Made by a program: the position numbers and the translations under genes | Shown here: piece by piece, positions 11,403-51,075 of the stretch | Numbering within the stretch: the first letter of the stretch is position 1 | How the letters are laid out: every line of letters begins with the position of its first letter | Assembly: GCF_032854445.1 (NCBI RefSeq) | Contig: NC_088297.1 | Span: 10,440,163-10,504,162, forward strand | DNA: 64,000 bases | Source of the DNA: Liolophura sinensis | Taxonomy: Eukaryota; Mollusca; Polyplacophora; Chitonida; Chitonidae | Direction of reading: 5' to 3' | Notes under the pieces: generated by a model | Told to the model about the DNA's origin: nothing | Seen by the model: only the letters and a program-made list of their open reading frames with translations | The model's database searches: none

Positions 11403-14400
11403 TCAGACAGACGACTGTAAGGCGTCAGTCACGTGACTGAAGTCAAAATTATTCCGACGTCCGACACTGGACGACAGTAACACCCGCGGCGTTGTCCTTC
11501 CGTTGTGGGTTGAACAGCGCCGACTGCGCACCCGCTCCTCGAGACTTATCGCGAGAGCAGGGGAGACAATCACGTCAAAGTCTGGTGGAATAGCCAGCTG
11601 GGGGCGTTGTGCCACTGAAAGGCAAAAAGAAACTGCGTCAAATAGTTCTATTTAACTTATCTTTGAAATTTTATACCTGTTAAAAACCAAGAATTCATTT
11701 TGGGACATACTATGAAAAGAAAATGTATTTGCCTATATATCCTTAACAGAGTAAAAGAAAGTTTGGTTGAGAAGCAGGTGATTGCTAAATTTCTAGTGAC
11801 AATTACAGAAATTCGTTACCAGTTTCACTTTTGTTTGAGTGTGTGTATTTATTTTTAGCCCCCCACCCCACCCCCCCACCCCCAAAAAATCGATGACTTA
11901 TTTGAATACGCCGATGATAACAAAGAGACAAAGAGAGAAGGGCAATAAGGGATACAGTTAATTGGTGTCACAAATTAACCCTTTTCTGATTTGGTTGCGT
12001 GTCTCATGCAGAGTTGTTGTAATAGCTCTTGCCATCCTGGTTGACCATTTTACTTCCTCGTTTTTTCCCCAGTGTGTTGGTGTGTCTCCTCCTTGAGTAT
12101 ATAACATATCCTCATTCTGCCAAAGAGTATTTTGTTCCCAGTGTCCTGTTACATAGCGTCTAACGAACAGTTTAAAAGCTGAATATGCTTCAAAAATTTA
12201 AAGCAGAGCGACCATGATGTTGGTTAATTCCGATCCAGTTTTGCCAATTTATTCTGATCTATAGAAAGCTTCTCTTGAAGACTTTCATTGCAATATAACG
12301 TTGGTTGAAGATAACTTGTCTTCGGTTCGGCCAAGGTTCGGTGGTTTACCCTCGGGCTCTCCGTGTTTGTCCACCCATATAACCGACCGCCATCGAATAC
12401 GTGATAAGTGTTTGAGTTTGATGTTAAGCAACAATCAAATAAATCAATGAGTCATTATGTGTTGCTGTTGGGTTTTACACATATTAACGGCTGAACTACA
12501 TGAATATCCGCTCCAAGACGGACGGAGTCCCTAGATGCGAAATCAAAACAATCCGCATTATTGTCATTTAAAATACTTTTCTGATAAATACGCTCACCAG
12601 TCCTCTACAAAGGGAAACAATGTTTGTACCTCATAGAACAACAGTGCCCTCTGTCTTCTAAGTACAACTGATCCTGAAAAACAATAGCCGGTATTGTCAT
12701 TCAAATAGGCATATTGCATTGTTGTTCCGTGGGTTACAAGATTTACCTCCCTTCATAGAGGGCAAATTGGCCTCGTTGGTCCATAGCAACCTTACCAATG
12801 TCCTGCTCCACCTGGTCTATGGTCTTAGCGTGTCTATATGGATCCAACATATATTTGTACACAACCACCGCCAACGCCGCACCGGTGAAAGGACCTGCCC
12901 AGAATATCTGAGAACATCATCAACAACAACAGCATCAGATCAACGAAGATTAACTAGTGTAAAGTACCTCCCTGAAAGGTTATTACGTGAACGACTTTGG
13001 CATTGCTTCACATTGCGATAGGCATAAGGAGATTTGCTGAGTTATGGTCTGTCTCGTGTTATTATGCAATCAGTGGGGATGAATTGTCATGCCCGGTGAA
13101 TTCATGATAACCTTCCTATTTATTTATTTATTTATTTATTTATTATTTTTTTGGCTGGTGTTTTACGTCGTGCTTAAGCATATTTCCCTTTTGAGAATGA
13201 GGGCGTTTGGTGCTTGGGACACACTAGTTATTGTATAATAACTTATAACTTACAGGGAAATCGTCATATAACTATCAGGATCTAACAAATTTTATATTTA
13301 CCCAAGGTATAAGAAATATGTAATCGGATTGATTGATTGATTGATTGATTGACTGACTGACTGACTGACTGACTGACTGTCTTACTGACTGACTGACTGA
13401 CTGTCTTACTGACTGACTGACTGACTGTCTTACTGACTGACTGACTGACTGACTTGCTGACTTACTGACTGACTGGCTGACTGACTGACTGTCTTACTGA
13501 CTGACTGACTGCCTGACTGATTGACTGATTGGCAGACTAACTGACTAGCTGTCTTACTGACTGACTGACTGACTGACTGGCTGTCTTACTGACTGACTGA
13601 CTGACCGGCTGTCTTACTGACTGACTGGCTGACTGGCTGACTGACTGACTGTCTGACTGACTGGCTGACTGACTGACTGATTGACTGACTGGCTGTCTTA
13701 CTGACTGACTGACTGACTGATAGGCTAACTGACTGACTAACTCACTGACTGACTGGCTGACTGACTGACTGACTGACTGACTGACTGACTGACTGGCTGA
13801 CTCACTGACTGACTCACTGACTGACTCACTGACTGACTCACTGACTGACTGACTGGCTGACTGGTGGTTAACGCCGTGTTCAGAAATTGTTCCAGGAAAA
13901 CTTCAAGAGTGAGAGTACTGGTTGTGACAGACATGCCAGCTTACCCAGTGTCGGTCCCAGTGTCCCGAGAAAATGGCGGGACCCAGAGCACGTGCGGGAT
14001 TCATCCCTCCGCCAGAGGAATTCTTCTACAAGCAGAAACCATCGGTAAACATACGGAGAATGTAATACAAATCACTAACGTAATCTATCCAGCCTCGCTT
14101 GGCGATCAGGTCTAAGAAATTAGAGCAAGGAAATAAGACTGATCGGCCAGGTGTCTGACTGTATAATGTGACTGGGTGGGGTGTCATGCCCGGTGTCTTC
14201 GGCATAATACTTAAGTGGCGGCATATGTACAGACCCCTGATGACGTCATCATATGGCTGAAAAATACAGAACGACAGACATACAACACAGCATTAGCTGG
14301 ACTAGGACATACGTCTAGTCAAAGGCTGATATAATCTAGACAACTCGGGTAGCCATAACGGCTTCCCACAATATTGGGAAATCAATCTGCACAACAATAA

Positions 14401-17400
14401 ATAAAATGTTTTTCATGTATCATTGGTTTTATTTTTGCTGTTTGCTAGAATAAGTTTGATGTATACTTTATCTGTGCTTTTGTCTGTATGTGAAACAGGT
14501 CTATCACCAGATAAAAGGAGCGGAAGGAGACTTTGTTGGTGTATTACCGTATGATTTACCACGGTGAGCAGACACGCCGTCACGCTGAGTCTGATCACCA
14601 CAGAAAAGGTGCTGAAGGAGACTTTATTGGTGTATTACTCTATGACTTACCGCAGTGAGCAGACACGCCGTCACGGTGAGTCCGATCACAAGGGAGAAGG
14701 TGCTGAAGGAGACTTTGTTGAAATCCTCTGCTCCGAGGATCACAGACATGAGAATAAAGGTGAGGATGAGCTCGATGACCAATGCCTGTACGGTGTGGAG
14801 GTTTGGATTGACCAAGTGGGCACCCAGATGACCTCTGTACGACAACGGGGTCAGCCTACCGGAAAGTTAATGGCTTTAGTGCCGCTGGTGGCAGTTTAAC
14901 ACAACATGTTTGGTCATTTTTTTGGAACTTATTAGCAAATAGTCACGCGTAACCGGTGAAATACGGCCTCTTGTCAATTTACCTCATTTAGTGATTTATT
15001 TTAACTGTTCATGCAAATTAATGCTTAATTACTAGTAGATTACACGCTCCCTAGCACCATGGCGTAAGCAAAGTAGGTAAAAACGCAGTAATGTTACTTG
15101 CAATTTAATAGACCTCACCGGTCTAGAATTACCCAAAATGTTGTGTTGTCATCACACTTAATGGACACAGATATGAAAGCCGGATGGAGATATCTCGTCC
15201 TGTGCCTCGTGGATAGAGACCCGCGGTACTAGAACGGTCCTGTTCGCGAGGGATTTGCGCCGTCCTTGTGTCGCGGGTTTTGATGTTCTCATCCGGCTTC
15301 CATACATGGACTAATTAAAAGTATAAATTCTGATTTTACGGCTTGATTATGGGCCATATAAGGGTTGAAACTGGGTAAGCTTGATTATGGACCATATAAG
15401 GGTTGAAACTGGGTAAGCTTGATTATGGGCCATATAAGGGTTGAAACTGGGTAAGCTTGATTATGGGCCATATAAGGGTTGAAACTGGGTAAGCTTGATT
15501 ATGGGCCATATAAGGGTTGAAACTGGGTAAGCTTGATTATGGGCCATATAAGGGTTGAAACTGGGTTAAATTTGAAATTTAATAATTTGACCCTAGACGA
15601 ATATTGCTTTATGCAATCGGCCTTGTGATAGGGCCAAAATAATCCGGTGGATTTCTTGGTATAGACCTATATAGTTAGGTATTGTAAAATTAATTTCCGT
15701 GTGTCACCTGCAAATGTTGCATATTTGCCGGTTAGTCTTTTGCGTGACAATGTAATATAACATCAATATCATCACAAAGCAATACACGAAAACAAAGGAA
15801 ATTTACATAGCTGTTTTTTTATAATTTATCCTGGGAATACGGCGGGTATACTTTTGATTCAGTACACTTCAGTTGGATTTTTGACCCAAGATTTACGTCC
15901 GTGTTCCACAGACTAAAATTTTATAATTAGTTGGATTTATTAGAACAGGATGTACCTTAAGCTTCATAAGGATCTCCTCGCTCGTTTTATAGAGTCTTTT
16001 AATTTGAATTAAAGGTGGGCGGTAAGTGGGAAGGTCTGTCAGCAGCCTGCGGATGGTCGTGGATTTCTCCCGGGTTCTGCCCGGTTTCCTCCCACCATAA
16101 TTCTGGCCGCCGTCGTATAAGTGAAATGTTCTTGAGTCAAACACCAATGAAATAATTAAATCAAATAAATAAATTAAAGGTGTATAATAATCTCAGTCAC
16201 TTACTGATTGATTACCTCCTGTTTATCACGTTAAGGCGTTAAGACGTTAAGAGGTCAGTTCACAGCACTTTGTGTACATTCCTCAAGTGTTTTAAGATGT
16301 CCAGGAAGTTAAGGTAAGTCAGGATTGGGCGGTACATTAGCTTAAGAGCGGGGCCTTTAAACCTTATACCCACCCCCCTTCCCCCCGTAGATTTAATTAC
16401 AATGTACGGGTTTACCTTTACCCGGAAGTATACAATCACTGACAAAACAACAACACCATGGCCATGATTGTTTAAGGGATAGATGAAAAGGAACTATAAA
16501 ACAAAGATTATGTTTCTATGCCAAATGAAGAAAATTATGCTCCGGAATTTTTGTTAAAAAAATTTCGTTTTGGGGGTATTTTTGTACCTGTTAATTACTC
16601 CTATATATTATGCATATTTTCCGTCAACGATCGAATTTTTTTTTCAGAAATTACATCATCGTGCTCGGAACTCGGGGAACACCCCAGAAGTGCCCCCAAG
16701 CCGGTGAACCGTCTCACTACAGCGCGGGCAAGGTGACATGTACACAGATACTGCAAGGCTTCTTTGGCCCAGCTCAGAGCCCCCTCCGCGTGCCCTACAC
16801 CAGCAATTCGGTACGTTCCCTACATCCGCGGTCTCCATTCGGCCAAACCCCGCTCGGCCTGTCCCGCACAGAGTTCTTTTTTAAACAGGGATTATTGTTG
16901 ATGTAACCTCTGCAAGCTACTTAATTTTCGGTCTGACCGCTGGGGCCTCAATAAAACTGTACTTTGAAGCCATTTTTACCCCATCCCCAACACTAAAGTG
17001 AAAGTTGAAAAATTTGTTTGTAGTGCTATATGTTATTACGCATGATAATCCGCACATTGAGAAATAAAACCAAAGCGTTTCATGCACCCTTTAATGTTTA
17101 TGTTTTGTCCCCGCGATTCGGCCTTGGATACACCCTTGTGTGGAGAGTTCAAACCAATATATCTACCCAAAACAAGCCGTGAAATAGGTGCCTGGTATTA
17201 TTGAAAACACCCCCTTTTCAAAAGGTGGCAAGACCCAATTTGTTCACGTTATATCATGCACTTGACCATGTTCACTTGGGTTAAACCAAGGTATTCAACG
17301 GTGTGTTTATCATAGATAAGATGAGATTGCCAAGGTACCCGCTCTGAATACAGCCAAATAACGTCCTCTCTTATGGAATTCCGTATCTCCACCACCAGAC

Positions 17401-19361
17401 GAAATTGTCACTCTTTTCAAAGTCAACACTCAGATTTAATCCTATATTTTCAGTTTTCTATCTAATTCCGCTTATAATTTACAAACTAGCACGGTACTTG
17501 ATTCGGATACTGATTTAATTCATTTGTTTGAGATGAAGATTAGTGGATACAAAACAAACTTTATTATCTAAGAAAACGTAACTGGAATTAATTTAAGAAA
17601 GCTTTCAAGATGGATACAAAAAAGCTTTTCCTCTTAAAAACAATATTGCATGAAAATAACACTCTACAATATACATTCAAAATATGCAGTATACGAGACC
17701 AAAACTTCAGTAAATCTAGACGTATTGCGTCTGGTATCAAGCAGAAATGAATTACTGGATAAGGGACATCTTTCAAACTGCGTGCCGTTGTGAAAAGAAC
17801 TAAACGATAGAAAAAAAAAAACCCGCTGCCTTACCCATAAAGTATGGCACCTGCGGCCGTGGCTCCCAGGCACTGAGAGATGATGTACATCAGCGTCCTC
17901 AGCGGTGTTATAGCCATTGAGACGAGGAATCCGAACGATACTGCGGGATTGATGTGAGCACCGGAAACGTGGAACAGGTATTCGATCATCCCGGCTTCCG
18001 TTAATCCGAACACGAACGGAGTCTGCATAGGGGCCAAAGTGTAGAGAGTTAATATCTCATAGGCTCACGTACATTTCAAGCAGTTGGTTGTTATTTATTT
18101 CGGGGAAAAAAGAAAGTGATTAATGTTAATTAACTCTGTACTCCAGAATTTTTAATGACGATCTCGTCCCGGTTTCATGAAGCGCACTTAAGTAACTAAG
18201 CCCATATATAAGTACCATGACAAATGTTGTAGAGATATGAATTACACTTAGCCAAGGGCTAGGCTACTTAACACTTGCTAGGGTTCATGAAACCGAGATC
18301 TGGTTGTGGGCGGAGGAAACTAGGAAAAACATCCTCTTATCAGGTAAAGCAAACTGACATAAAATCGCCGCTGAATCAGCGCGAGTAGAATTTTATTTTT
18401 AGTGGTCTTTCGCATGTAATGATTTTCTTTGCCCTTGAACAAGGGTGGAGTTTTTCCAGTAAGTTTTACTCCCAGACAGCACGACCAACTACGACTGTCC
18501 AACAAACCAAAGTGTATAGATTACCAATTGGCGGCTTTGCTTGGTCGCAGATCTATATAAATAGGTGTTTATATCTCGGATATAAGTTGTGATTAAATTC
18601 TGAACATATAATACAGGTAAAGTTTGTTCTCCAATCCTGGTTTACACTGGAAATAAAAATAGTATTTATACCAAAGGCTACTTCTTGCTTCCAAGATATA
18701 CACGCATTTTTGCAACATACACACACGGTTGATACTCACTGAAAAACAATACCCGAATCTTACTGGGTGCCTCCGTGGAACACTTGGTTAGCGTGCTAGC
18801 GCAGCGTAATGACCAAGGAGCCTTTCACCGTCGTATAAGTGAAATATTCTTGAGTACGGCGTAAAGCACCCATCAAATAAATAAATAAAATGAATCTTGC
18901 TTTACAGAGGATGGAAAGTGATCTGGCCTAAAACAAAACTTGTATAGAACAGGTCTTTTCCGCTTAGCCTTCTTCGTCAAGCGCCCAATTACGCAGCCCA
19001 AAGTTCGTTGGAGGTATTTGTCTTTCACCGTTATGATTTATATAATTGTTTATTCATTTTATTGCTTTCTTCGGGAAAATCGAGAATATATCACTTATAC
19101 GACAGAGGACCAGCATTGTGGTGAGAGGAAACCAAGCAGAGCCGGGGAAACCCACCTCCATCCGCAGGTTGCTGATAGACTCCACCAATGGAATGGACGC
19201 ATTCCACGCATAGAAAAGTTCGTCAGTAACTTACCAAACACCTATTTACACCAGGCATCTCGGTTCTATCCATAAATAAAATTGACCACAATCGTATAAG
19301 TGAAAAATGAATGGCGTTAAACGACAAACAGATAATTAAATGAATAAATAAATGCCGGAAA

Positions 19362-19457
<96 letters not shown>

Positions 19458-19722
19458 AATGCATAGTCCTCATATGCAAGCGTAATATTATTATAACAGC
19501 GGTGAGAATACTTACCAGCATTTCATGAGGAATGCGGCTATCGTCCCACAACAATGTTGACGAACAGCCTAGAAACACGTACAGCATAGTGCCGATAAAC
19601 TCTGCCAAGCAAGCCCGCCATAGTCCGACAGAGCAGAATTCAAATACAACTGATTTCGGGATTTGCTCAGAAAATCTTAGTTTGTCGATCTTCCGAGCGA
19701 TGTGAGAGAAGTAGGCCTCCAT
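11403..19722 (-). CDS. aquaporin (MIP family), minus-strand copy, 6 coding exons
   Basis: Membrane channel of the aquaporin family, expected to move water or small neutral solutes as a tetramer of six-helix subunits. Coding exons, 5' to 3': 19722-19516, 18022-17835, 14855-14651, 14025-13945, 12907-12796, 11614-11403. All introns are GT-AG and phases agree (0, 2, 0, 0, 1). Total 1005 nt, 334 residues. Evidence: [19 protein letters not shown] in helix 1, [14 protein letters not shown] (first NPA, residues 94-96), [19 protein letters not shown] (second NPA, 209-211), then [19 protein letters not shown] as helix 6. The start at 19722 gives [13 protein letters not shown], matching [13 protein letters not shown] of the plus-strand gene; an ATG 13 codons upstream (19761) is less likely. 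Exons 2-5 have the same lengths as in the plus-strand gene. Aligning to AQP1, the selectivity filter would be F74, L197, G206, R212, i.e. the usual His and Cys are replaced. Exon 4 begins at a TAGAAG tandem acceptor, so one Lys may be optional. Exon 5 could read through its donor to a stop at about 12746, giving an alternative short C-terminus. Confidence 0.88.
11856..11884 (-). other. C-rich tract, potential G-quadruplex on minus strand
   Basis: Runs of 6, 4, 7 and 5 C separated by single A. On the minus strand, which is the transcribed sense of the aquaporin, this lies in intron 5 about 240 nt upstream of exon 6 and meets the four-run G-quadruplex pattern. Confidence 0.5.
12330..12447 (+). 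mobile_element. SINE type B 3' part
   Basis: GTCCACCCATATAACCGACC, GCCATCGAATACGTGATAAG and TTAAGCAACAATCAAATAAA. Inserted in intron 5 of the minus-strand aquaporin, in the orientation opposite to transcription. Confidence 0.7.
13105..13190 (-). mobile_element. SINE 3'-end fragment
   Basis: (ATTT)n at 13110-13145 followed by GGTGTTTTACGTCGTGCTTAAG, the reverse complement of the common SINE tail. Intron 4 of the minus-strand aquaporin. Confidence 0.6.
13329..13862. repeat. (CTGA)n tetranucleotide array, about 530 bp
   Basis: Long CTGA/GACT microsatellite with periodic CTGTCTTACTGA interruptions (at least seven), so part of it has expanded as a longer unit of 24-60 bp. It lies in intron 4 of the minus-strand aquaporin, ending only 82 bp from exon 4. 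On the minus strand it reads (SQSV)n, an artefact. Confidence 0.95.
14150..14290 (+). mobile_element. SINE type C fragment
   Basis: Contains TATAATGTGACTGGGTGGGG, GTCTTCGGCATAATACTT and ATATGGCTGAAAAAT, matching the element at 58030-58320. Inserted in intron 3 of the minus-strand aquaporin. Confidence 0.6.
14499..14698 (-). repeat. 91-bp tandem duplication of the 3' end and donor of aquaporin(-) exon 3
   Basis: Units start at 14517, 14608 and 14699 (exact 91-bp offsets). The unit 14608-14698 holds the true last 48 nt of exon 3 plus its donor GTAAGTC (14644-14650). The unit 14517-14607 is a copy with the donor changed to GTAAATC, and also copies the exon segment encoding KVSFST. A further degenerate trace lies at 14499-14516. 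Read-through of the true donor meets a stop (VSHRVIHQ*) before the copy, so the copy cannot extend the frame. Confidence 0.85.
14935..15165 (-). repeat. dispersed element D1, copy 2
   Basis: On the minus strand it carries GATGACAACACAACATTTTG, GGTAATTCTAGACCGGTGAG, CCATGGTGCTAGGG, TGCATGAACAGTTAAAA and GTATTTCACCGGTTACGCG. These are in the same order as at 20770-21015 and, more diverged, at 5224-5455. Located at the start of intron 2 of the minus-strand aquaporin (next to exon 3). Confidence 0.7.
15175..15302. repeat. GC-rich fold-back element
   Basis: Begins GAAAGCCGGATGGAGA and ends TCTCATCCGGCTTCC, which are near-perfect inverted repeats. An inner inverted pair ACCCGCG ... CGCGGGT and a third AACGG ... 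CCGTC nest inside. It is much richer in GC than its surroundings. It could be a MITE or a structured RNA; nothing here distinguishes them. Confidence 0.6.
15342..15566. repeat. 38-bp repeat x6, each with a CArG-box consensus
   Basis: Six almost identical 38-bp units (GCTTGATTATGGGCCATATA followed by AGGGTTGAAACTGGGTAA). Every unit contains CCATATAAGG, a perfect match to the SRF-binding CArG consensus CC(A/T)6GG. Located in intron 2 of the minus-strand aquaporin. Whether it binds SRF is untested. Confidence 0.93.
16024..16171 (+). mobile_element. SINE type A, 3' part
   Basis: GTCAGCAGCCTGCGGATGG, CCCGGTTTCCTCCCACCATA and GTCGTATAAGTGAAATG with an (AAATA)n tail. Inserted in intron 2 of the minus-strand aquaporin. 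Confidence 0.88.
18160..18302. mobile_element. MITE-like inverted-repeat element
   Basis: Left end GATCTCGTCCCGGTTTCATG followed by AAGCGCACTTAAGTA. The right end, reverse complemented, reads GATCTCGGTTTCATGAACCC followed by TAGCAAGTGTTAAGTA. About 140 bp with no coding capacity. Intron 1 of the minus-strand aquaporin, 140 bp from exon 2. Confidence 0.75.
18766..18890 (+). mobile_element. SINE type A with internal deletion
   Basis: tRNA-like head (GCCTCCGTGG...TTGGTTAGCGTGCTAGCGCA, pol III A-box region) joined directly to the tail TATTCTTGAGTACGGCGTAA and (AAATA)n. The middle body is missing. Intron 1 of the minus-strand aquaporin. Confidence 0.85.
19085..19190 (-). mobile_element. SINE type A fragment
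   Basis: Reverse complement of the type A body (GGTTTCC, CATCCGCAGGTTGCTGATAG). Followed at 19275-19354 by a plus-oriented tail (ATCGTATAAGTGAAAAATGA, AATGGCGTTAAACGAC, (AAATA)n). Confidence 0.75.
19363..19456. repeat. (AT)n microsatellite
   Basis: About 47 uninterrupted TA units in intron 1 of the minus-strand aquaporin, 60 bp from the exon 1 donor. It reads as (YI)n in translation and probably is length-variable. Confidence 0.97.
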
Positions 19723-22226: not shown

Positions 22227-24931
22227 ATGGAGGTTCTATTTGTTCACCTTGCTAGAAAAGTCGATAGTTTACGAAAAGGGGAAAAGAATGCCACTTCCGA
22301 CTGCAGTATTTCTTGTTCGATATGGCGGGCCATGATGGCAGAGTTTATCGGAACGATGTGTCTGGTACTTATCGGCTGTGGAGTTGCCATTACAACTAAA
22401 GATACAGAGGAAGGGATAATAAAGGTAAAATGCAAATGACTGAAAGCCAAAAACTCTAAAAGCACACTTAATTCATCTGAATAATCAAACTTTACGAAAT
22501 AATACTTTTTTATGAGCTTCTCGTCACTTATAATAGCTAAAACAATTATTTGTCAGGAGTCAGGGAGCAACCTGCGGATGGTCGTGGGTTTCCCCGGGCT
22601 CTGCCTGGTTTCCTCCCGCCATAATGGTGGCCGCCGTCGTATAAGTGAAATATTTTTGAGTACGGCGTAAAACACCAATCAAATAAATAAATAAATAAAT
22701 AAATAAATAAATTTGTCAAGAGTGTTTTTATGACAATATTTTCGATGTCAAGTATTCGCTAAAGAATAAGGGAACAAAACGTGTAATTGTCCAATAAGAG
22801 AGTTGTGCAAGTAGTTGATTATGTTACCACAGCTGTTTACTTCCACAAAATTAGATGCTTATAAAATTTGGATAATACTGAAGAAATATCACGCTTCCTC
22901 TGCTACAAATATGGCAATTTAACCCAGGAAAGTCAAACGTGAACAAGGTGCGTGCTCAAAGGGGTAGGAGGTGTGACTACGAAGTTTTTGCACAATTACG
23001 TATTCTGTCGCACCCTTATTACAGGAAGGAATATGTAGTGCGTTAACTAATGATTAGGGCTTTTGTATCCCTTTCCTCAAACTTTTTATTTCCATCCTCA
23101 CTTAAGTTTTCTTAATTATTCGAAAATAACTTTGTCTGATTGCTTTTCCTACATATCTGCCGTAAATTTAGTATTGCGGTGTCGGGACAGATAGTCATAA
23201 CAGCTCAGACATTTGTTAATTTTTTAAATGACGTTGTTCGGTGACTAATGGCATTGTCTATTCTAGAGAACCAAACGGCCCTTGAACAATGACGTTCAGT
23301 GAAAGGAGAAATGGTCATTGTTTGATGAGCTGATTGTTTTTGGTCAACATTTTGTTTAATATGAGAAAAAATAGCTGAAAACAATTCATTTCTTTTGGTA
23401 ATTGCCTATATACTATGGAAAAGACACAGAAAATGACACACATTTTATTCAAGTGGACCTGCTTTCGATTTCGCAATACATGCATCCAGTAATTCAAGGA
23501 TGTTTATATTGAGATCTTGAATGTCTGCAGACAATATAGGATACGTGGCAATGAATCAATGATGTCTCTACTTTGACTTGTTCACAGATCGCGCTGGCGT
23601 TTGGTCTGGGCGCCATAGCCTCCGTTCAGATGATTGGTCACATTTCCGGTGGTCACATCAATCCTGCAGTCACAGTTGCCAGCGTGATATCATTGGACAC
23701 GGGCTTCCTCCGAGGACTGTGCTACGTCATCTCACAATCTGCCGGCGGGATTGCTGGAGCAGCCATATTGTTAGGGTATGCTTACATAATGCATCGACAC
23801 TGAAGAAACTTTAAAGTGTACATAAAGTTAAAAACGTTGTGACCTTCCAAGTAAAGGTAGCAGACAACTGTGTCCAGAAATACTTCAAGCTGACCAAGAA
23901 ATTCTACACAATCTTTATTATTGAATTATTTTCTAAGACGGGTTTTTGAAACCATATTTTCCAGAGATTTTTCACATTGCAAAAATCCATTAAAACCTAT
24001 TAGAATGACCCTAAGATAGTTCATCAGAGAAATAACTACAGTATTTTCAAATATTTCATGCACATATACGGGATATTCTCAGAATCTGTTAAACATGATT
24101 ACTTAAATGACCTGTTGAGACACCTTTCATTATGTATCTTTTCTATAAGGAATCTTCAGATATATTGAAGAACAAACTTACTCGTATTAGCCTGCTCAGT
24201 ACAGTGTATTTGCAGTTATGTCTTTTCAGCTGTATAGATCTATCTAATACCGGATATTACACATTTTATTATTTTGAGTATGAATGTCATGTGTTCCCAC
24301 AGCTGTCTTAGTGTGCATGGTCACGTGTTTAGTCTTGTTATTTCTCACATTTGTGATGTTGATATTTTCCAGCACTGTTCCCTCATATTTATGATGTTGA
24401 TATTTTCCAGCACTGTTCCCTCACATTTATGATGTTGATATTTTCCAGCACTGTTCCCTCACATTTATGACGTTGATATTTTCCAGCACTGTTCCCTCAT
24501 ATTCATGATGTTGATATTTTCCAGCACTGTTCCCTCACATTTATGATGTTGATATTTTCCAGCACTGTTCCCTCACATTTATGATGTTAACGTTTTCCAG
24601 CACTGTTCCCTCACATTTATGATGTTAACGTTTTCCAGCACTGTTCCCTCAGCAGTCTCCACCTCCCTTGGATCCACCGTACCGGCACCTAGCGTTACTT
24701 ATTGGCAAGCATTTGGGGTGGAGTTTGTTCTCACCTATATTCTCGTGTTCGCTAACGCCGCCATTTCTGATTCCAACGCGCATGTCGCCGGTCACACGTC
24801 ACTTCCGACAGGGCTGATTATAGCCGGTCTTCATCTTCTCGGGGTAAGTTTGTACATTAATTACCAACACGCAACTGCGGAAATCATTTCAGCCTTGTCG
24901 GATATGTTCAGCTACCTGTAAATGTAGCTAC

Positions 24932-24987
<56 letters not shown>

Positions 24988-26147
24988 CAGTGGTTCAGTG
25001 TCGAAAAGCGGTATCCCCTCATATAACCAAACAAATTCATCGGAGCAATTGCCTACTTGACTTAAACTTTCCAACAGATACCACTGACCGGATGTGGGAT
25101 TAATCCCGCGAGATCTCTCGGACCTGCTGTTATTTCCGGAACATGGACACACCACTGGGTAAGCCATGTAAACTCTGTAGACTCTGTAGAACCTTGTGAA
25201 GTTCGAAAATATAAAATGTCTCGGTGTATCCAAAATTTTCGCGAACGAACCAATGAAAGAATAAAAGTGTATAAATAGCGTTTTACCCACTTGACATTTG
25301 TGAAAGTAACACATGTAGTCGGTTGCAGTTGTGATGCATTTTAGTTTTATTTTCTCAGGTCTACTGGGGTGGTCCGATAGGGGGCGCTATACTAGCTAGT
25401 TTGTCTTACAAATATTTGTTAAGCCCGTATAGACACTTGCCTAGCGTGGAGGAAGCCATCGAGAAAGTAGGTAAGCTAAACCGAAGATATTTTATCATGT
25501 ATATGCAGGAAGCTGAATTTAAACAATGATTTAAGAAAAGTTGCAATAAGAAGTTGTCAAGCAAGTGCCAAACAAGTTTTTTCAAACATACAAGTTTGGC
25601 ATGGCTGTACACCACTTTTCAAAATGCTACTATTTTGGCCTTTTGATCTACATATGCGAAATACAAGACTCTGGTCCGTATTTGGATAGAAACCTCTTCG
25701 TCAGGCGTATTTTGACCTGGGTCATTCCATCTGGTGAGCTATATACACACATATATTTATACCCTAATTAGATTCAGTCGTTCCTAAACTTCAAGTTTAA
25801 AAGCCTAAGCGACATAAGTGCTAAAGACCTTGGTACTCACAATACTCTGATCGCCACAATACCACCTGCAATATCAATATGCACACTGTATACGGCATAA
25901 ATGCGTAATCATCGACCATCTGATTCTGGTAAAACATGGCCGTCTTCCCTCTCTCTTTTCAGTACACAGTGACCCTATACTAGCAACAATCCGAGACTTG
26001 TCTACTCAGAGTCAGCTGGCGACGGTCAACAAGTCCCTGCCTTCTCGGGGCCGCACGCTTTGGGAGAGACCAGATATTCCTTCCGTCTACAGGCCGGGGT
26101 CAGAGTATGAAATCATCCCACATCTCCTAACAGAGGACCGGGTGTGA
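22227..26147 (+). CDS. aquaporin (MIP family), plus-strand copy, 6 coding exons
   Basis: Classical water-channel-type aquaporin. Exons: 22227-22424, 23588-23775, 24639-24843, 25078-25158, 25359-25470, 25963-26147. All introns are GT-AG and phases agree (0, 2, 0, 0, 1). Total 969 nt, 322 residues. Helix 1 is [18 protein letters not shown]. The first NPA is in [16 protein letters not shown] (91-93) and the second in [20 protein letters not shown] (206-208). Helix 6 is [20 protein letters not shown]. Against AQP1 the aromatic/arginine filter residues are F71, H194, C203 and R209, the full water-selective set. C203 is the residue linked to mercury sensitivity in AQP1. The exon 3 acceptor sits at the end of an 8-copy 38-bp repeat that duplicates it; only the last copy gives an open frame. 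The end of exon 6 is degenerately repeated in the 3' flank. The exact subfamily is not assigned. Confidence 0.92.
22556..22712 (+). mobile_element. SINE type A, 3' part
   Basis: GAGCAACCTGCGGATGGTCG, CCTCCCGCCATAATGGTGG, TTTTTGAGTACGGCGTAAAA, then eight AAATA-type units. Inserted in intron 1 of the plus-strand aquaporin, same orientation as the gene. Confidence 0.92.
24347..24651 (+). repeat. 38-bp minisatellite copying the 3' splice site of aquaporin(+) exon 3
   Basis: Eight copies at exact 38-bp spacing of TTTTCCAG|CACTGTTCCCTCA, with the acceptor AG followed by CACTG at 24373, 24411, 24449, 24487, 24525, 24563, 24601 and 24639. The last copy is the real exon start (completing Gly129, then TVPSAVS). 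Use of any upstream copy gives G-T-V-P-S-(H/Y)-(L/F/S)-stop, because each linker carries an in-frame TGA. Confidence 0.95.
24933..24987. repeat. (GT)n microsatellite
   Basis: About 27 GT units in intron 3 of the plus-strand aquaporin, 90 bp after exon 3 and 90 bp before exon 4. Confidence 0.97.
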
Positions 26148-35800: not shown

Positions 35801-38800
35801 GGCTTTACATGTATGGTGAGGAAAAATCGCAAAATCATGCAGCAGGCACCACCAGATAGAAAAAAAACGTGCTCTTTTCAGCCTGTAGTGTCATGTTTTT
35901 AAATTTTCTTCTTCTTTAACTCATGTTGACATTGTGTACAATGTCATGTTGATCCTACCTCAGGCATATCCAGGAAATGTCCATCTAATGAAATGCGACT
36001 GGACACCCAGACTGCTGCATTTATGTCCCGGACTAAATTACCCATCACACTTACCGCTGGAAACCCACTGGCAGTATGTTTATCCACTTGCTCACTGGTA
36101 GGAATATTATAGCAGCATTATAATAGTCTTCTAACATTTTGGACGAACTGGTCGATTAGCTGTTGCTGTTGTTGTTGTTGTCTTGACCTTGAATTGATTG
36201 ACAAGGTGAAAGGACGGTGACTTCCCATTGCCAGTCGGCAAACATGCTATCTTTCTTCAAATTGGCAGTTTTTGCCTGACCAGTCATCTCAAAAATTTGC
36301 ATTTCAATTCAGTAATTCAATGTTGACATTTCTCTATTCATATCGGCTCTAACATGGAGTCTGTCAACTTTTAATTGGATCACATGACGTAAACTGATCA
36401 GTAATATTTTGTGTATGGATTTTCACTCTCCTGGGCATTTCTGCCATTTGATTGGCTCTCTGATAACTGGGTCACAAAAGCTGTTTTAACACAGGATGTA
36501 TCTATTTTTATCACTGGTTGATAGAGTAAAGAATGACTAGATAGGCCGATGATAGTATGATTGTAGGGTAAGGCAAAACCATCATAAAGTGGCAGGTACC
36601 CAACAACCTTTTGACCAAACTCCACAGCTGCATCTTGAGTCTAGCATGGAGCCTCACTGGTCAAAGCACTAGTTGCCCTAAAGGGAGAGAACTCACAAGA
36701 TGTCTTGGTCAGTCTGTCATTCAACCTTGTGAAGATCTCAAATTGAAACTTTTTTGCTATAGGTGGGCGTCAGAGCAAAGACATCATTGAGCAAGCTCTT
36801 AACCAGGCCAGAGCAATGGTGATGCAGAGAGTGTCAGGGAAAGGCGGAAGTAAGAGTGGAGGTTCAGGCGGGGGTAGTGGCAAGGTAAGAGAGAGGGGAG
36901 TGAGGTGCTTACGTTGGGGGAGGGTTAGTATGATACAGTTTTCATAAGCTACCATGAAACTTGGCCATGACTCCAGTGGTTTTTGTCATATTTAGTGGAG
37001 GATGGAACCATGATTTGAAGAGGCTCTACCAGAGATTTTTGGCAAAACATACAGTAAATCAGCAAAAATCCAGTCAATGCAATTCCTTCACAGGTTTAAA
37101 TTTCATGTTCATGTTTTGATGTTTCTCATCTATGTTTACCTGTATAAGTGCAATGTTCTTGACCTCTGTTTACAAACGAGCGACTCTGCTGATGTGATTG
37201 AGCTGACTGACATCCAGAAGCGTGTGAAGGATGGTGGAATTCTTTTTTACTTTCAAATACTTTCTTGTTTTCTCACCTGTGTCTTGACCTCTGTTGATAG
37301 AAGAGTGACCCGGCTGACGTTATTGAGCTGACCGACTCAAACTTCCAGAAGCTTGTTCTGGACAGTACAGACATCTGGATGGTGGAATTCTTCGCCCCCT
37401 GGTGTGGTCACTGTAAGAATCTTGCTCCTCATTGGGAACAGGCAGCCACTGAGCTGAAAGGGAAAGTGAAACTAGGTGCCCTGGATGCCACAGTTCATAC
37501 TGTCACAGCTGGCAGATACGGGGTAAGTATTCGTTTAGCTTCCAAGATTTAAATCAAGTAATGAACATTGGACGGATACCAGATTTTCTGCTATTATGTG
37601 TTGTAAATCTATGTTGAATTAATCAGCCAGAAGTTGTTTTCCTCAAAAACAGAAGAAGAGAATGCTTGTTTGATTTAAAAGGCTATTTCAGATTCTTGTT
37701 TAGAATAATGAAAGTTTTACTTCAAATTGTTACTAAATTAACAATTATTAATTACGCACACAAAAAATGAAGAAAATGAAATTAATAGTGTTGCCGACCA
37801 AAAAAGGAAAAAAAAAAACACAAATATGTTAATTTCTGTTTCTTCTATTTCTGCATGTAATGCCTGGTAGAGGGTCATACTATTAAGGTGCTTGCCTTCC
37901 TATCACCAAGACACGCAAGATTTGGTTTCGGTGCCATTCTCAGACAGGGAATTTCTAAAATTTGTTTTTGAAGCATTGCTGTCAATGAATGGTCAGCTGT
38001 AAATTTTCATGTAGTCTTACATCAAGTTCACTGCAGACTGGTGGCCTGTCACCAGTATGGCTTGGGTCTCCATGCCTTTTCACACAGAAATGCTTTCATG
38101 TAAAAGTTGTCTACCTTGTTTAGATTCAAGGATTCCCAACAATTAAGATCTTCCCTGCGGGGGTGAAGGATGGTTCAGCTGAGGATTACCAGGGAGGGAG
38201 AACTGCCTCTGACATTGTGCGTCAGGGTGAGGACTTGGCTGCTGAGAATGTCCCTCCCCCAGAGATCATACAGGTAACAGTCTCCTTGCTTACTACCAGC
38301 CTGGTTGGCTATATTATTTTGGATTTAATACTAATAACTGACTGATGAATTGATATGGAGAAAGTTTTCTAATTCTTAATTCTCCTTAAATGTCTTTTAC
38401 AAATATACAAAGATCTTGTAAACTTTTTTACTGAAATATTTTTCTGAAATCAGGTTTATCAGATTGTCTGGTACATTGTTCAAACCATTCGCAGTATTCG
38501 ATAGGGAACTCGTAAAACTCCTACCCGCCTGTATTAAGACGGTCCAAAGCTGTGAACTCATTAATTTTTCCCTTTATTACTTCACAATTATCAGCGTGTA
38601 TGAGTACTCATAACACATATATGAAGTACACACGCACTGCAACATCACAGAAGAAAACGATGCGTTCCTCTGTCATTGGAATCTTCTGTGTAGCTCGTTG
38701 TTGAGTCTCACATTGTGAAGAAAATGTCCTCCTGAATCTATATACTATGTGTAGCAAACATTGATTGACAGATTGCCAAATCACTGACCAATCCTAAAAC

Positions 38801-41800
38801 AAGAGAGAGTGCATTTGTCTAGTAGAGCCAATCAGTTGTCTCGGATGGAGAACTTTGTGAAAAGTCTTTGCAGTGATGATAATGACAGAGAAGAGCGGTG
38901 GTGGGAAAGGATGGGGGATGTGTTTTGTGCTTTGCAAAGATCTTTCATGAGGAAATGTGAAATTAAAGTGTAAAGTCCTAAAGGTGGAAGTTGTAAACTT
39001 GTAATGGCAATGTGGGATCAGATTCTTGGGAGATATTTTCACGAAGACACAACTACATTTGAAGTGGGGTGGGGAAGGTATGGGGGAAAAAAATGTTTAA
39101 AAGAAAAAAATTTGACAATTTAGGTTGTGATTAAGCACAAACTTTACCTGTTGATTCTTTGTTACAGCTAACGGAACAGAAGACTCTGACAGATGCCTGT
39201 GATGAACACCAGTTGTGCGTGATTGCTGTGTTACCTCACATCCTGGACTGCCAATCAAAATGCAGGAAGGATTATATCGACCTTCTGACACAGCTTGGAG
39301 CCAAATACAAGAAGAAGATGTGGGGGTAAGAGGGTGGCTTTTTTCTCAGACTATTTTTGCACCAACACAAACCTGATGGCTGTGAAGTAAATGTCAGATT
39401 CTGGAATGTGGCACTAAGCTCTGAATAAGATAAATGTAAGATTCTGGAATGTGGCACTAAGCCCTAAATGAGGTTAATGTAAGATTCTGGAATGCAGCAC
39501 TAAGCTGTGTAAAAAATAAATGTAAGATTCTGGAATGCGGCACTAAGTCCTGAATAAGATAAATGTAAGATTCTGGAAAGTGGCACGAAGCCCTGAATAA
39601 GATAAACGTAAGATTCTGGAAAGTGGCATGAAGCCCTGAATAAGATAAATGTAAGATTCTGGAATGTGGTACTAAGCCCTGAAAAAGATAAATGTAAGAT
39701 GCTGGGATGTGGCACTAAGCCCTGAAAAAGATAAATGTAAGATTCTGGAATGTGGCACTAAGCCCTGAATAAGATAAATGTAAGATTCTGGAATGTGGCA
39801 TGAAGCCCTGAATAAGATAAATGTAAGATTCTGGAATGTGGCACTAAGCCCTGAATAAGGTAAATGTAAGATTCTGGAATGTGGCACTAAGCCTTGAATA
39901 AGATAAATGTAAGATTCTGGAATGTGGCACTAAGCCCTGAATAAGGTAAATGTAAGATTCTGGAATATGACATGAAGCCTTGAATAAGGTAATTGTAAGA
40001 TCCTGGAATGTGGCACTAAGCCCTGAATAAGGTAAATGTAAGATTCTGGAATGTGGCACTAAGCCCTGAATAAGGTAAATGTAAGATTCTGGAATGTGGC
40101 ACTAAGCCTTGAATAAGATAAATGTAAGATTCTGGAATGTGGCACTAAGCCCTGAATAAGATAAATGTAAGATTCTGGAATGTGGCACGAAGCCCTGAAT
40201 AAGGTAAATGTAAGATTCTGGAATGTGGCACTAAGCCCTGAATAAGGTAAATGTAAGATTCTGGAATATGACATGAAGCCTTGAATAAGGTAATTGTAAG
40301 ATCCTGGAATGTGGCACTAAGCCCTGAATAAGATAAATGTAAGATTCTGGAATGTGGCACTAAGCCCTGAATAAGGTAAATGTAAGATTCTGGAATGTGG
40401 CACGAAGCCCTGAATAAGGTAAATGTAAGATTCTGGAATGTGGCACTAAGCCTTGAATAAGATAAATGTAAGATTCTGGAATGTGGCACTAAGCCCTGAA
40501 TAAGGTAAATGTAAGATTCTGGAATATGACATGAAGCCTTGAATAAGGTAATTGTAAGATCCTGGAATGTGGCACTAAGCCCTGAATAAGATAAATGTAA
40601 GATTCTGGAATGTGGCACTAAGCCCTGAATAAGGTAAATGTAAGATTCTGGAATGTGGCATGAAGCCCTGAATAAGATAAATGTACAGCAAAGCACCCAA
40701 GAAATGTCCATGTATAAATTTCCTGCGCTTGTAAGCCAACCATGGCTTACAAGCTCTGCATAAACTTTCATCCAAGTCCTTACATAATTTTTTGTTTAAA
40801 TTTTTTGCTCGAGTACACGCTGACAAAAATGTAGATGTTTTTTACTATTGTTGGCTTTTTTGTGAAGCATTCTTTGCTCATGCCCACCAGAGAAGATAAA
40901 AAGTGTCAACCTCCGCTTGATAAGCAGAGAAAATAGATCAAATCATTGTCCATGATCCTTCATTTGCAGTTGGAACACTTGGTGGACAGTGGGGACAACT
41001 CTGGTTCTCACAATTTTGATGCTTTTTGTTTGAGGTGTTTGCAGTGAGAGGTGTAAAAAGGCATTAAGGATTTTTTTTTTTCATCAGTATAATTGTTGCC
41101 TCTGCGACCTTGTGTGGGAAATTTGTCTTCAGGCCTGGCTGTTTGTAGGGCCTTGGTGACAATATGACGATGCTTATCTTCAAACGATCTTGTGTACACA
41201 TTTGTACTTCGCACATGGGAAAGTTTGCCTAAAGATCTGTGGATTGCGTCAGATGCTTCAGTTTCCTCCACCCATAAAACTGACCGCCATTGTATCAGTG
41301 AAAAATGTTTGTGTATGACATTAAACAAATAAATGACCATATAAAGTAACTGCTCTGTATTTTACCTTGATGGCGACCTTTAACCTTATGGTGACCTCTG
41401 ACCCCTGTTTGACTCTGGTTTCAGGTGGGTGTGGGCAGAGGCCGGATCTCAGATGGACTTGGAGGAATCTCTGGGCATTGGGGGATTCGGTTACCCAGTA
41501 AGTTTGTTGTTGTAGTTTGACTCTTTTTTAATCATTTTTTTTTAGTGTTTTTTTGGTTTTCTTTTCTTGTTTTTTGTAAGATCCGGAATATATAAGACTA
41601 TTTTTATGATACCCTTTTGTCTTGTCTGCAAGATAAATATGCTGAATTCCTTATTTTTGCATTTTTAAGACACGTTTTCAGTCTGTTTGGAAGCGTTTTA
41701 ATGTATTGTCAGTTTATCATCTGAGTATGAAACGGTACATAATGTGACATAAAAAGCTGCGTATACTGATTATTATACCAGAAACCAGAATGTATTGACT

Positions 41801-44354
41801 ACCACCCTTTACCTACATGTGTTTTCTCTTTTTAATATATCTATCTATCAGCTCATGCTGGTTTCCTCTCCGGCCATGTGTGGGAAGGTCTTCAGCAACC
41901 TGCGGATTGTCGTGTGTTTCCCCCGGGCTCTGCCCGGTTTCCACCCGTCATAATGCTGACCGCTGTCGTATAAGTGAAATATTCTTGAGTACGGCGTAAA
42001 ACATTTGTCTATTGGAGGAGCTTTTGTGAATTTGACCTTTCAACTGAACTTAAAAAATTTGACAAAACCCCTTGTATATCAGGAAGGTATCAACATTTAC
42101 CATTTGGCAGTGTGCACACATTTTTCAATATAGCTAAGGATGTACAATGTACCTATCACATTTCATCGTGATGTTTATTTCCAGGCTATGGCTGCTGTCA
42201 ACTCTAGGAAAGCTAAATTTGCCCTGCTCAAGGGATCATTCAGTGAACAAGGCCTTAATGAGTTTCTCAGGTAAGTCAGTCAGATTCTAAATTGTGCTCA
42301 GGGGATCATTCAGTGAACAAGGCTTTAGCAAGTTTCTCATGTAAGTCAGTCAGATTCTAAATTGTGCTCAGGGGATCATTCAGTGAACAAGGCTTTAGCG
42401 AGTTTCTCAGGTCAGTCAGTCAGATGAAGATGTTCATCTACTGCAATAAATACAACGTATTGCCCAAGATATCATTTATCTTATCTTTATTATATTGATA
42501 AAATATTCCAAAGATATTAATATGGCTGAAGGTCACATACGTAAAAATGTACGTAAAATTAAATCAGGTGAAGTCATTTTACACTATGAATGAGATACCG
42601 GCAGCAATCCTAAGTGGGATGTGTTATGTCATTTCATTGATGCTGGCCATTCCACTGCAGCGTCTGATAAACGAGTCCACAACACGGAGTTCCTGTTCCA
42701 ACACGTATATTCATTCACACAAATCCGCTACAAACACAGGCACATGTGGCCACACCAAGACACAAAAGAGAACTGAAGCACATGATTCCTCAACCCACAA
42801 TTCTCTTCACCTTTCCGGCCCCCTACACCCACGAGTTCCTAGGAGCCCAGGTACATGTACAGAGTTACATCCCCTTCACCACAGCTTTACAACATGACCT
42901 CATGCATCTTGGATTTAATATACTTCTCTTTTTCAAGACGACTTGGGTAGACCAAATACATCACAGATGAAACCGCAGCCCGCCACATGTATTGCGCAGA
43001 AGAATTTGTTCTTTTCAGCTAACCTCACAAAGACTTGCGAGGTGCAAGTAATCTATCACAGTAGCACTACCTTTTGTGAGAGGTTAATCTGCCGGTACCC
43101 GATTGTACAATGTTAATGGTGTAATTGCATATGTATGTTTGCTGAGCGTGGTTATATTTGTACCACAGCCTTATTCTTGGTTGTAAAACTGGTGTTTACT
43201 GGTGAGTGTTGTTTGTTTCAGGGATTTGTCATTTGGTCGGGGGTCTACCGCTCCACTGAAGAACGCCAAACTACCCACAGTAGTCAAGACAGAACCATGG
43301 GACGGCAAAGACGGAGTGGTGAGTGACAAGATTCCGTTCATGTGAAAACCTTGTCTCCTGGGGCCAGTTGCTCAAAAGTAGTTAAGCCCAGTATTAACTT
43401 TAATCTGGACTAAAGTTCCATTAGTTTTGTATTGGGCCAAGACATATTAAGATTTAAACCTGGCTTAACTTTAAAATTTAAGCCAGTCTTAACTTTTAAT
43501 ACGCTTTTGAACAACCGGCCTCTGATGCACAGATTATAAGGAGAGGGGAAGTCCTCACTATGAAATCATGTATGGGGGTCAAGGCTTGTTGGGCTAAAAT
43601 GTTGTTCTTGTTGCTGTCGATCTGTTGCTGACCAATGAGATTGCTGTGTTTAATTCATCTTCCGTCTTTCTCCACACATAAACCAGACGCCATCATCTAA
43701 GTTCTTAATCATGGCATTAAACAGCAGGCAAATATATATATAAATAAATCAAATCTGGCTTTAGTCAGTTTCCCTGTGTCGAGTCCAGGCAAGACTTGTC
43801 TGTTACATGTACCTGGTGAAGAGCAGTGGTTTCCTGCTGTGCACTGCAGTTTCCTCTGTGCACTGCGGCTTCCTCTGGGCACTGCGGCTTCCTCTGGGCA
43901 CTGCAGATCACTGGTCTGACAGAGGCGTATTTATAGCCATTTTATTTTCAGAAAACATTTGGACTTTTAAACAAATCAATCTGCATTAAAATTAACGAAT
44001 AAATTGAACAATAATGTGATGGTTTACTGATGAAATGTTAAGTTTTCACACTATTGGATTTCAATATCAATTTGGGTTTTCATTTTATAACATTTCTTTA
44101 TGCGTGGTCACTGTGTCACTGTTTGGGATGAGAACATTCAATTTTTGTAAAAGATATGGACCTGTTTGACATTGAAAATAAAAGCAGCAATTCAAATTCC
44201 AGACTTTTCTTGGATATTAAAATGCCCTGAATTTTATTTCCATTTCACACTTTTTGTGTTTCAGTTGGAAGTTGAAGACGATATAGATCTCAGTGATGTA
44301 GATTTGGATGACTTAGATGATGCTGATGATAAAGGGAAGAAAACAGAGTTGTGA
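29868..44354 (+). CDS. PDIA6: protein disulfide-isomerase A6 (P5), 12 coding exons
   Basis: ER-lumen thiol oxidoreductase that forms and shuffles disulfides in client proteins. Exons: 29868-29880, 33073-33223, 34982-35039, 35180-35306, 36763-36884, 37301-37522, 38124-38273, 39168-39325, 41425-41497, 42185-42270, 43222-43318, 44265-44354. All introns are GT-AG with agreeing phases. Total 1347 nt, 448 residues (human PDIA6: 440). Exon 1 codes only MINF plus one base and joins exon 2 to give a signal peptide ending [10 protein letters not shown] (residues 1-20). First thioredoxin domain has WCGHC (55-59, Trp split by an intron), then a Gly/Ser linker (about 145-157). Second has [10 protein letters not shown] (191-200). 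The b-type domain follows with [17 protein letters not shown] (C309, C313), KKKMWGWVWAEAG and [12 protein letters not shown]. The acidic tail [17 protein letters not shown] ends in KTEL, a variant of the KDEL retrieval signal. The intron 1-exon 1 assignment rests on phase and signal-peptide logic. The longer frame opening at 32907 is intronic before 33073. Confidence 0.95.
31240..31374 (+). mobile_element. SINE type A, 3' part
   Basis: GCAACCTGCGGTTTCCCCC (with GATGGTCGTG deleted), CCTCCCACCATAATGCTGG, TTCTTGAGTATGGCGTAAAA and (AAATA)n. Intron 1 of PDIA6. Confidence 0.88.
31587..31608 (+). repeat. poly-G tract (about 22 G)
   Basis: Uninterrupted run of about 22 G in PDIA6 intron 1. It is prone to length error in sequencing and assembly. 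Confidence 0.9.
33489..33700 (+). mobile_element. SINE type A, diverged, head and body
   Basis: tRNA-like head (GGGGACCTTCATAACCAAGT then GGTTAGCATGCTAAC; B box GTGAGTTCAACTCC), followed by CAGCTCATGCTGGCTTC and AACCTGCAGATGGTTGTGG. The 3' tail is lost. Intron 2 of PDIA6. This and the 59.2-kb copy define the head of the family. Confidence 0.75.
34553..34690 (+). mobile_element. SINE type A, 3' part
   Basis: GTGGGTTTCCTCCCATCATA, ATGCTGACCGCCGTCGTATA and TTCTTGAGTACGGCGTAAAA. Preceded at 34553-34576 by a reversed (ATTT)n GATTGGT tail remnant. Intron 2 of PDIA6, tail to tail with the next element. Confidence 0.85.
34694..34900 (-). mobile_element. SINE type A, near full length, inverted
   Basis: On the minus strand: GGTCTAGTGGCCTAGCGGCT (tRNA-like head), CACGAATGCGTTTGC, GGATGGTTGTTGATTTC, CTCGCCATAATACTGGC and ATATTCTTGAATACAGC. 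With the plus-oriented element just upstream it forms an inverted pair about 80 bp before PDIA6 exon 3. Confidence 0.75.
37158..37246 (+). pseudogene. degenerate duplicate of the 5' end of PDIA6 exon 6
   Basis: CTTGACCTCTG-TTTACAAACG at 37158 parallels CTTGACCTCTG-TTGATAGAAG at 37283 (offset 125 bp). It continues with GATGTGATTGAGCTGACTGA (residues DVIELTD) and GGATGGTGGAATTC (MVEF). About 24 nt are lost internally, and the acceptor AG is gone (TTTACAAACG). The copy therefore cannot be spliced like the real exon and ends in T-rich sequence before the CGHC site. It is a dead exon fragment in intron 5. Confidence 0.85.
37860..38095 (+). mobile_element. possible SINE remnant in PDIA6 intron 6
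   Basis: GGTAGAGGGTCATACTATTA and GATTTGGTTTCGGTGCC look like a diverged tRNA-derived head with a B-box-like motif. No recognisable 3' tail, so the identification is weak. Confidence 0.3.
39394..40684 (+). repeat. 43-bp minisatellite in PDIA6 intron 8, about 30 copies
   Basis: Unit of 43 bp (GATAAATGTAAGATTCTGGA then ATGTGGCACTAAGCCCTGAATAA). It starts about 70 bp after the exon 8 donor. A variant unit (GGAATATGACATGAAGCCTT then GAATAAGGTAATTGTAAGATCC) recurs at 39962, 40263 and 40521, exactly 7 and 6 units apart, showing higher-order block duplication. Minus-strand frames ([18 protein letters not shown]...) are repeat translations. Confidence 0.96.
41190..41335 (+). mobile_element. SINE type B 3' part
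   Basis: TTTCCTCCACCCATAAAACT, GACCGCCATTGTATCAGTG and ATGACATTAAACAAATAAAT. Intron 8 of PDIA6, about 90 bp before exon 9. Confidence 0.75.
41850..42004 (+). mobile_element. SINE type A, body and tail
   Basis: CAGCTCATGCTGGTTTCCTC, AGCAACCTGCGGATTGTCG, CCCCGGGCTCTGCCCGGTTT and TTCTTGAGTACGGCGTAAAA. The (AAATA)n tail is missing. Intron 9 of PDIA6. Confidence 0.9.
42225..42430 (+). repeat. 70-bp tandem triplication of the 3' end and donor of PDIA6 exon 10
   Basis: TGCTCA(A/G)GGGATCATTCAG starts at 42225, 42295 and 42365 (exact 70-bp offsets). The first copy is the real exon end with donor CTCAG|GTAAGT (42270/42271). The copies end CTCAT|GTAAGT and CTCAG|GTCAGT. Reading through the first donor gives an immediate TAA, so the extra copies cannot extend the protein. 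Confidence 0.93.
43362..43522. mobile_element. MITE-like element with about 19-bp terminal inverted repeats
   Basis: Left end GGGGCCAGTTGCTCAAAAG; the right end, reverse complemented, is GAGGCCGGTTGTTCAAAAG (16/19 match). The interior is palindrome-rich (TTAAG...CTTAA). Intron 11 of PDIA6, 45 bp after exon 11. A similar end (GAGGCCGGTTGTTCACAG) occurs alone at 45010. Confidence 0.75.
43656..43751 (+). mobile_element. SINE type B tail fragment
   Basis: TTTCTCCACACATAAACCAG, ACGCCATCATCTAAGTTC and CATGGCATTAAACAGCAGGC with an AT-rich tail. Intron 11 of PDIA6. Confidence 0.6.
43838..43910. repeat. about 20-bp repeat x4 in PDIA6 intron 11
   Basis: Four units of TGGGCACTGCGGCTTCCTCT type. Confidence 0.85.
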
Positions 44355-50394: not shown

Positions 50395-51075
50395 ATGACA
50401 AGTTTGTGAAGGTTCCATGTTTGAATCCAGCTTGTGACTGTGCATAAATCCTATATTGTCCCACTAAATAATGCATTGTCAAACAAGCTGTTGTATCCTG
50501 ATATCCCTGTGACCAGAGGTTCAAATCCACATGATGTCAGTTTTATATTTGCACTACCAGTAATATTGAAGATATTAGGTCACAAAAGACATGCTGCTCT
50601 ATAAATGAAATACTTCTGTAGGCCTTTGATAGAAATTTATATGCTTTCTGCTATATTTCCACACAGAGGAATGTAGAGAGAACTGCTAAATATGCTAGGG
50701 GTCATGATTAATAAGACTTCGTGCAGAGTGCTACTTGACTGCCTGACTTAGAGAAGAAAAGGGTTATGGAAAAGTAATGCTCATGTAGAAATATTATGAA
50801 TAGTGAACTTTTGTAGGCTAATAATTACAGAAAATAATTAACGTCCATATGTAGATATTACAGATAGTTGTCTTGCATGTGCAGTTATTACAGAGCAAAA
50901 TTCCACATGCATAGTATGACGTTAAACCCCAAGCACTCACTCACTCCACATGCATTTATTACAACTATATATTCAAAACTAATATATGTAAGTAGTCATG
51001 ACAAACTTTCACATGAAATTATTTATATGCAGAGAACAAACTTCCATATGACGTCATCACCGGCAATAATCTTCC

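Follow-up and report, generated by a model that had tools for sequence, protein, structure and literature searches.

The closest described systems are the amphioxus 'mirages'. In BflGb6, the repeat unit joins the last part of an intron to the beginning of exon 2, one haplotype carrying six such units and the second carrying three, and RT-PCR suggests regular splicing, though many units bear AG/GT signals (PMC3087553). PGBD5 was added as a mirage case in a paper that also cites Adh and troponin C (PMC3902484). In human genes, tandem repeats at exon-intron boundaries are reported to create introns (PMC2812944).

The window analysed here, a whole stretch of 64,000 nucleotides in whose coordinates all positions are given, holds a comparable arrangement in a plus-strand aquaporin gene (AQP+), where a 38-bp minisatellite runs over the end of intron 2 into exon 3. 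Like the amphioxus mirages, it is built of units that join an intron end to an exon start (BflGb6; BflGb9 represents the donor side), its splice signals are copied across many units, and the copy adjoining the exon is the authentic gene section. The array has the structure by which mirages are defined; regular splicing would follow by the amphioxus parallel, and the frame through copy 8 is intact. We consider it probable that the array is a mirage in this sense, namely, a near-neutral minisatellite lying over an intron/exon boundary, with exon definition favouring copy 8 and a slight leakage into nonsense transcripts.

The array and its host gene

The array, its acceptors, and the two aquaporin genes of the window are located as follows, a slash in the sequence strings marking the splice point.

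22227..25470, plus strand: AQP+, with exons 22227-22424, 23588-23775, 24639-24843, 25078-25158, and 25359-25470
24344..24651, plus strand: 38-bp minisatellite of 8.1 copies, found by TRF, covering the last part of AQP+ intron 2 and the initial 13 bases of exon 3
24365..24613, plus strand: TTTTCCAG/CAC at seven poison acceptors, or decoys, whose exon starts run from 24373 to 24601 and every one of which leads to TGA
24631..24651, plus strand: eighth copy, the real acceptor, with the intron end at 24638 followed by the first 13 exon bases and an open frame
12796..19722, minus strand: AQP-, a head-to-head paralogue, with exons 19722-19516, 18022-17835, 14855-14651, 14025-13945, and 12907-12796

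AQP+ belongs to the MIP family (Pfam MIP, 9.8e-62), and its translation carries both NPA motifs, HINPAVT and GINPARS, within the picture of a MIP domain with two NPA motifs. All nine annotated junctions have GT/AG, and the frame is open; the exons were annotated as far as 25470. The nearest PDB matches are AQP2 and AQP4 (best 5.9e-41), and the residues from the copy 8 junction fall in a gap-free part of the AQP2 alignment, for which the query had been pre-joined at copy 8. The paralogue AQP- also matches Pfam MIP (5.1e-61), and exons 2 to 5 have equal lengths in the two genes (188/205/81/112 nt), the end of the fifth exon being set in both at a chosen donor. Intron 2 of AQP- contains a second 38-bp array (15341-15566, 5.9 copies, 98%), which has another consensus.

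TRF describes the array at 24344-24651 with a period of 38, 8.1 copies, 95% matches, and a score of 539. The 21-mer TTTTCCAGCACTGTTCCCTCA occurs eight times, at positions 24365 + 38k, and eight identical 21-mers in register are beyond chance. The TRF result and the 21-mer positions bear out an earlier note on this DNA, which had described eight copies at 38-bp steps. Each copy carries the acceptor string TTTTCCAG/CACTGTTCCCTCA, with candidate exon starts at 24373, 24411, 24449, 24487, 24525, 24563, 24601, and 24639. The unit is composed of 25 intronic and 13 exonic bases and lies across the intron/exon boundary, as the units of a mirage do, and the splice signal is duplicated with it, TTTTCCAG/CAC being present in 8/8 copies.

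The acceptors had also been called near-identical, which holds for the 21-base block in all eight copies but not further upstream, where copies 1 to 6 have TTGATA and copies 7 and 8 have TTAACG at the same place. Copies 7 and 8 show no difference from -37 to +13. The pairwise identity of the units averages 93.5% and ranges from 87 to 100%. Directly behind CTCA, units 1 to 8 have, in this order, the bases C,T,C,C,T,C,C,C, a pattern that hints at growth of the array by multi-unit steps.

Branch-point-like YTNAY sites are found in each unit at -26 and -11, with an additional site at -20 in copies 2 to 8, and are followed in order by the pyrimidine tract, the AG, and the 13 exon bases. Ahead of the acceptor lies a zone free of AG, measuring 38 nt in copy 1 and 36 nt in copies 2 to 8, where it is limited by the AG of the preceding copy. 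Judged by its sequence, the 38-bp unit is an entire, self-contained 3' splice-site module, with the branch points being putative.

Assemblies easily get the number of short repeat units wrong, and one amphioxus mirage was reportedly assembled aberrantly in the draft genome (PMC3087553). It is nevertheless very unlikely that the assembler expanded or collapsed the array, with units that are told apart by substitutions over the range of identities given above and with unrelated arrays of the same type close by. The exact count of eight, which comes from one assembly, may be wrong.

Reading frames of the eight acceptors

When exon 2, which ends at 23775, is joined to copies 1 to 7, a TGA appears as the seventh codon past the split Gly in 7/7 cases, whereas joining 23775 to copy 8 (exon start 24639) keeps the aquaporin frame open through the end of exon 3. 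These joined translations agree with the earlier claim that the last copy alone opens a usable frame and that the seven others soon reach a TGA. Exon 3 is 205 nt long in both AQP+ and AQP-, and copy 8 is therefore the real acceptor and the ancestral border; the frames and the 205-nt exon 3 of the paralogue together confirm the proposed anatomy of tandem acceptors, seven of them poison and the last one real. A downstream acceptor at CCCTCAG/CAG/ (after 24652 or 24655) was rejected because, read from the sequence, it would shift exon 3 out of its frame and change the length from 205 nt.

All seven decoys (7/7) keep the AG and the pyrimidine tract. Seven intact AGs are what a young array would show. 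The decoy TGA would stand near the start of exon 3, over 200 nt ahead of the next junction, so that decoy transcripts would be expected to undergo nonsense-mediated decay, which is an established pathway.

These observations would also suit a copy-number attenuator, in line with the earlier note's idea that copy number tunes output, in which the seven decoys send a fixed fraction of the transcripts to nonsense-mediated decay and the repeat number sets the aquaporin output, perhaps differently between individuals. Such an attenuator would have decoys with AG, pyrimidine tract, and early TGA, as found in 7/7 cases, a copy 7 equal to copy 8 from -37 to +13, and units as alike (87-100%) as expected for an array of unstable length. 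We nevertheless find no support for tuning by copy number and hold this function to be decidedly unlikely in view of the tests for selection and the other duplicated boundaries described below, and the amphioxus mirages are reported to leave splicing undisturbed (PMC3087553, PMC3902484). A mirage close to neutrality is the reading that we prefer.

Splice-site scores and tests for selection

A crude acceptor matrix was derived from the window, based on 17 acceptors, and the leave-one-out scores of the 18 acceptors span -2.2 to 13.4. The score of copy 8 is 5.1, and that of copy 7 is the same. Copies 7 and 8 have an edge over copies 1 to 6, which stems mainly from column -9 and becomes smaller with larger pseudocounts. 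On this crude matrix, copy 8 is outscored by three AGs that lie in intron 2 but not in the array, after 24229 (the best), 23937, and 24332, and this speaks against a special role for the array. As a guide to the copy that is used, the matrix was discarded as uninformative, with copy 7 tying and the three outside AGs scoring higher.

The unit has a run of 21 invariant columns. With variable columns placed randomly, such a run has P = 0.024 when each of the 7 variable columns counts as independent and P = 0.14 when the TTGATA/TTAACG cluster is counted once (5 events). The invariance of the acceptor block was therefore rejected as a signal of selection, the P value moving from 0.024 to 0.14 with the counting of clustered changes, and this lack of a sign of selection on the decoys argues against the attenuator.

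Other duplicated boundaries in the window

In the two aquaporin genes and a PDIA6-like gene, the exons of the latter being placed via a human protein sequence, we annotated 38 predicted junctions (18 acceptors and 20 donors) and searched for local duplications by comparing the window with itself within 1500 bases. Four of the 38 junctions (10.5%) lie inside local duplications, namely, the exon 3 acceptor of AQP+, the exon 3 donor of AQP-, and the exon 9 donor and the exon 5 acceptor of the PDIA6-like gene. The three cases beside the AQP+ array are the following.

14499..14720, minus strand: 91-bp array of 2.5 copies (86%) across the exon 3 donor of AQP-, with one complete decoy donor and a truncated third unit
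42225..42425, plus strand: 70-bp array of 2.9 copies (93%) across the exon 9 donor of the PDIA6-like gene, with two decoy donors
37157..37225, plus strand: degenerate copy (76%) of the PDIA6-like exon 5 acceptor region (37282-37356), lying just upstream of it and having AA in place of the acceptor AG

The two decoy donors at PDIA6-like exon 9 each have a changed base (CAT/GTAAGT and CAG/GTCAGT). All decoy donors that keep GT score under their real donor (3/3), with 7.0 versus 11.0 for the AQP- donor and 4.9 and 5.4 versus 11.3 for the PDIA6-like exon 9 donor. Use of a decoy donor would give an immediate stop in the PDIA6-like gene (two decoys) and a stop after seven more residues in AQP- (one decoy). 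The in-frame copy is the copy adjoining the exon body in 4/4 boundary duplications, which is partly forced, because any other arrangement would have destroyed the gene. The four cases may represent a single life cycle consisting of the birth, expansion, and decay of decoys.

Local duplications cover 15% of the positions in the window, or 8% if the two longest arrays (39388-40685 and 46617-50395) are excluded; by gene span, the background is 6% for AQP-, 10% for AQP+, and 14% for the PDIA6-like gene. Compared with these backgrounds, the 4/38 junctions (10.5% versus 15%, or versus 8% once those two arrays are set aside) do not support an enrichment of arrays at splice junctions, and junctions are neither clearly preferred nor clearly spared by duplications. 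A rate near the background is a further argument against the attenuator, and the three additional junctions duplicated in the same manner argue against a special role for the AQP+ array.

The longest array of the window, a minisatellite at 46617-50395, repeats a 41-bp unit about 92 times. The window also carries a SINE-like string, which we take to resemble molluscan SINEs.

4150, 18834, 22640, 31305, 34638, and 41969, plus strand: six copies of the SINE-like string TATAAGTGAAATATTNTTGAGTACGGCGTAAA, all on this strand and with at most 3 mismatches

Exact searches of genome_contigs, viral_contigs, and a paper library with a SINE-like string gave no match. A search against Rfam at gathering thresholds gave 0 matches, and six other open reading frames compared with Pfam matched 0 families.

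Origin of the array and choice of the acceptor

The self-similarity at period 38 extends from 24344 to 24651, which corresponds to 8 x 38 + 4 bases, and the extra four bases are CTCA, found at both ends. The first tandem duplication probably took place between CTCA tetramers 38 bp apart in a presumed single-copy ancestor. The intronic CTCA would be the one in TTTCTCAC, itself branch-point-like, and the exonic CTCA the one in CCCTCAG of exon 3; a duplication between these two would place a complete acceptor module in every copy. The expansion to eight copies could then have proceeded via slippage or unequal exchange. Taken alone, the four-base CTCA microhomology is a weak mark of origin.

Splicing would take place mainly at copy 8, through exon definition, since this copy alone adjoins the exon body and yields the shortest exon when measured to the donor of exon 3, with 205 nt versus 243-471 nt for the decoys. 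Correct splicing must be frequent, because the AQP+ gene looks intact. Leakage to the decoys is predicted to drop with distance (7 > 6 > ... > 1), so that copy 7 would be the commonest decoy; as it is identical with copy 8 from -37 to +13, its use may even be substantial. As a whole, the array would be close to neutral.

A choice of the acceptor by proximity to the donor, or by scanning, would instead mostly take copy 1, turn most transcripts into nonsense, and leave the gene nearly silent. Copy 1, with branch-point-like sites of its own at -26 and -11, is the closest to the donor, but the exons, the borders, and both NPA motifs of AQP+ are intact, and the two donor arrays also have the exon-adjoining copy in frame, so that we regard this choice as highly improbable. 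It is very unlikely, too, that the number of copies in this acceptor minisatellite, possibly a non-chordate one, governs how many of the aquaporin transcripts are nonsense, with use declining copy by copy from the exon; if this were true, repeat slippage would be a heritable dial on water-channel expression. Exon definition acting on a nearly neutral mirage remains our preferred explanation.

Comparison with known systems

In the globin-gene constructs of the 1980s, which carried duplicated splice sites, identical sites reportedly competed in one transcript. The AQP+ array differs from these constructs in being natural, in having eight copies, and in residing in an apparently intact gene, and it can be seen as a natural eight-way counterpart of the classical duplicated-splice-site experiment. 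Since copy 7 cannot be told from copy 8 between -37 and +13, any difference in their usage must stem from position and context. The order of usage would separate the models, as it declines from 8 to 1 under exon definition and from 1 to 8 under donor-proximal choice.

The minisatellite of IFI6 (6-16), attributed to work by Turri in 1995, is said to provide multiple splice donors, and its repeats are reportedly used. Both are splice-site minisatellites, but IFI6 reportedly multiplies donors, whereas AQP+ multiplies acceptors. Introns are also said to arise from tandem arrays, reportedly in studies by Zhuo in 2007 and by Gao and Lynch in 2009, and mirages are a possible source of new introns. 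The human internal tandem repeats resemble the AQP+ array in being border repeats that multiply splice signals; in the human genes, however, novel introns form and the repeats may stay in the transcript, whereas a new intron is not evident in the AQP+ array (PMC2812944).

Four boundary duplications, apparently at different stages of decay, within one 64-kb window suggest that mirages are an ordinary by-product of the birth of minisatellites. With regard to the amphioxus mirages, the copy number of BflGb6 varies, with 6 and 3 units in two haplotypes; the AQP+ array represents one haplotype, and its unit of 38 bp compares with 150-160 bp in BflGb6 and 10-72 bp in Adh3. The AQP+ array further differs from them in having eight copies, in keeping all eight acceptor strings intact, and in belonging to a different gene. 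What it adds to the amphioxus cases is a very short, complete, and eightfold acceptor module, with its last two copies indistinguishable, in what is possibly a non-lancelet host.
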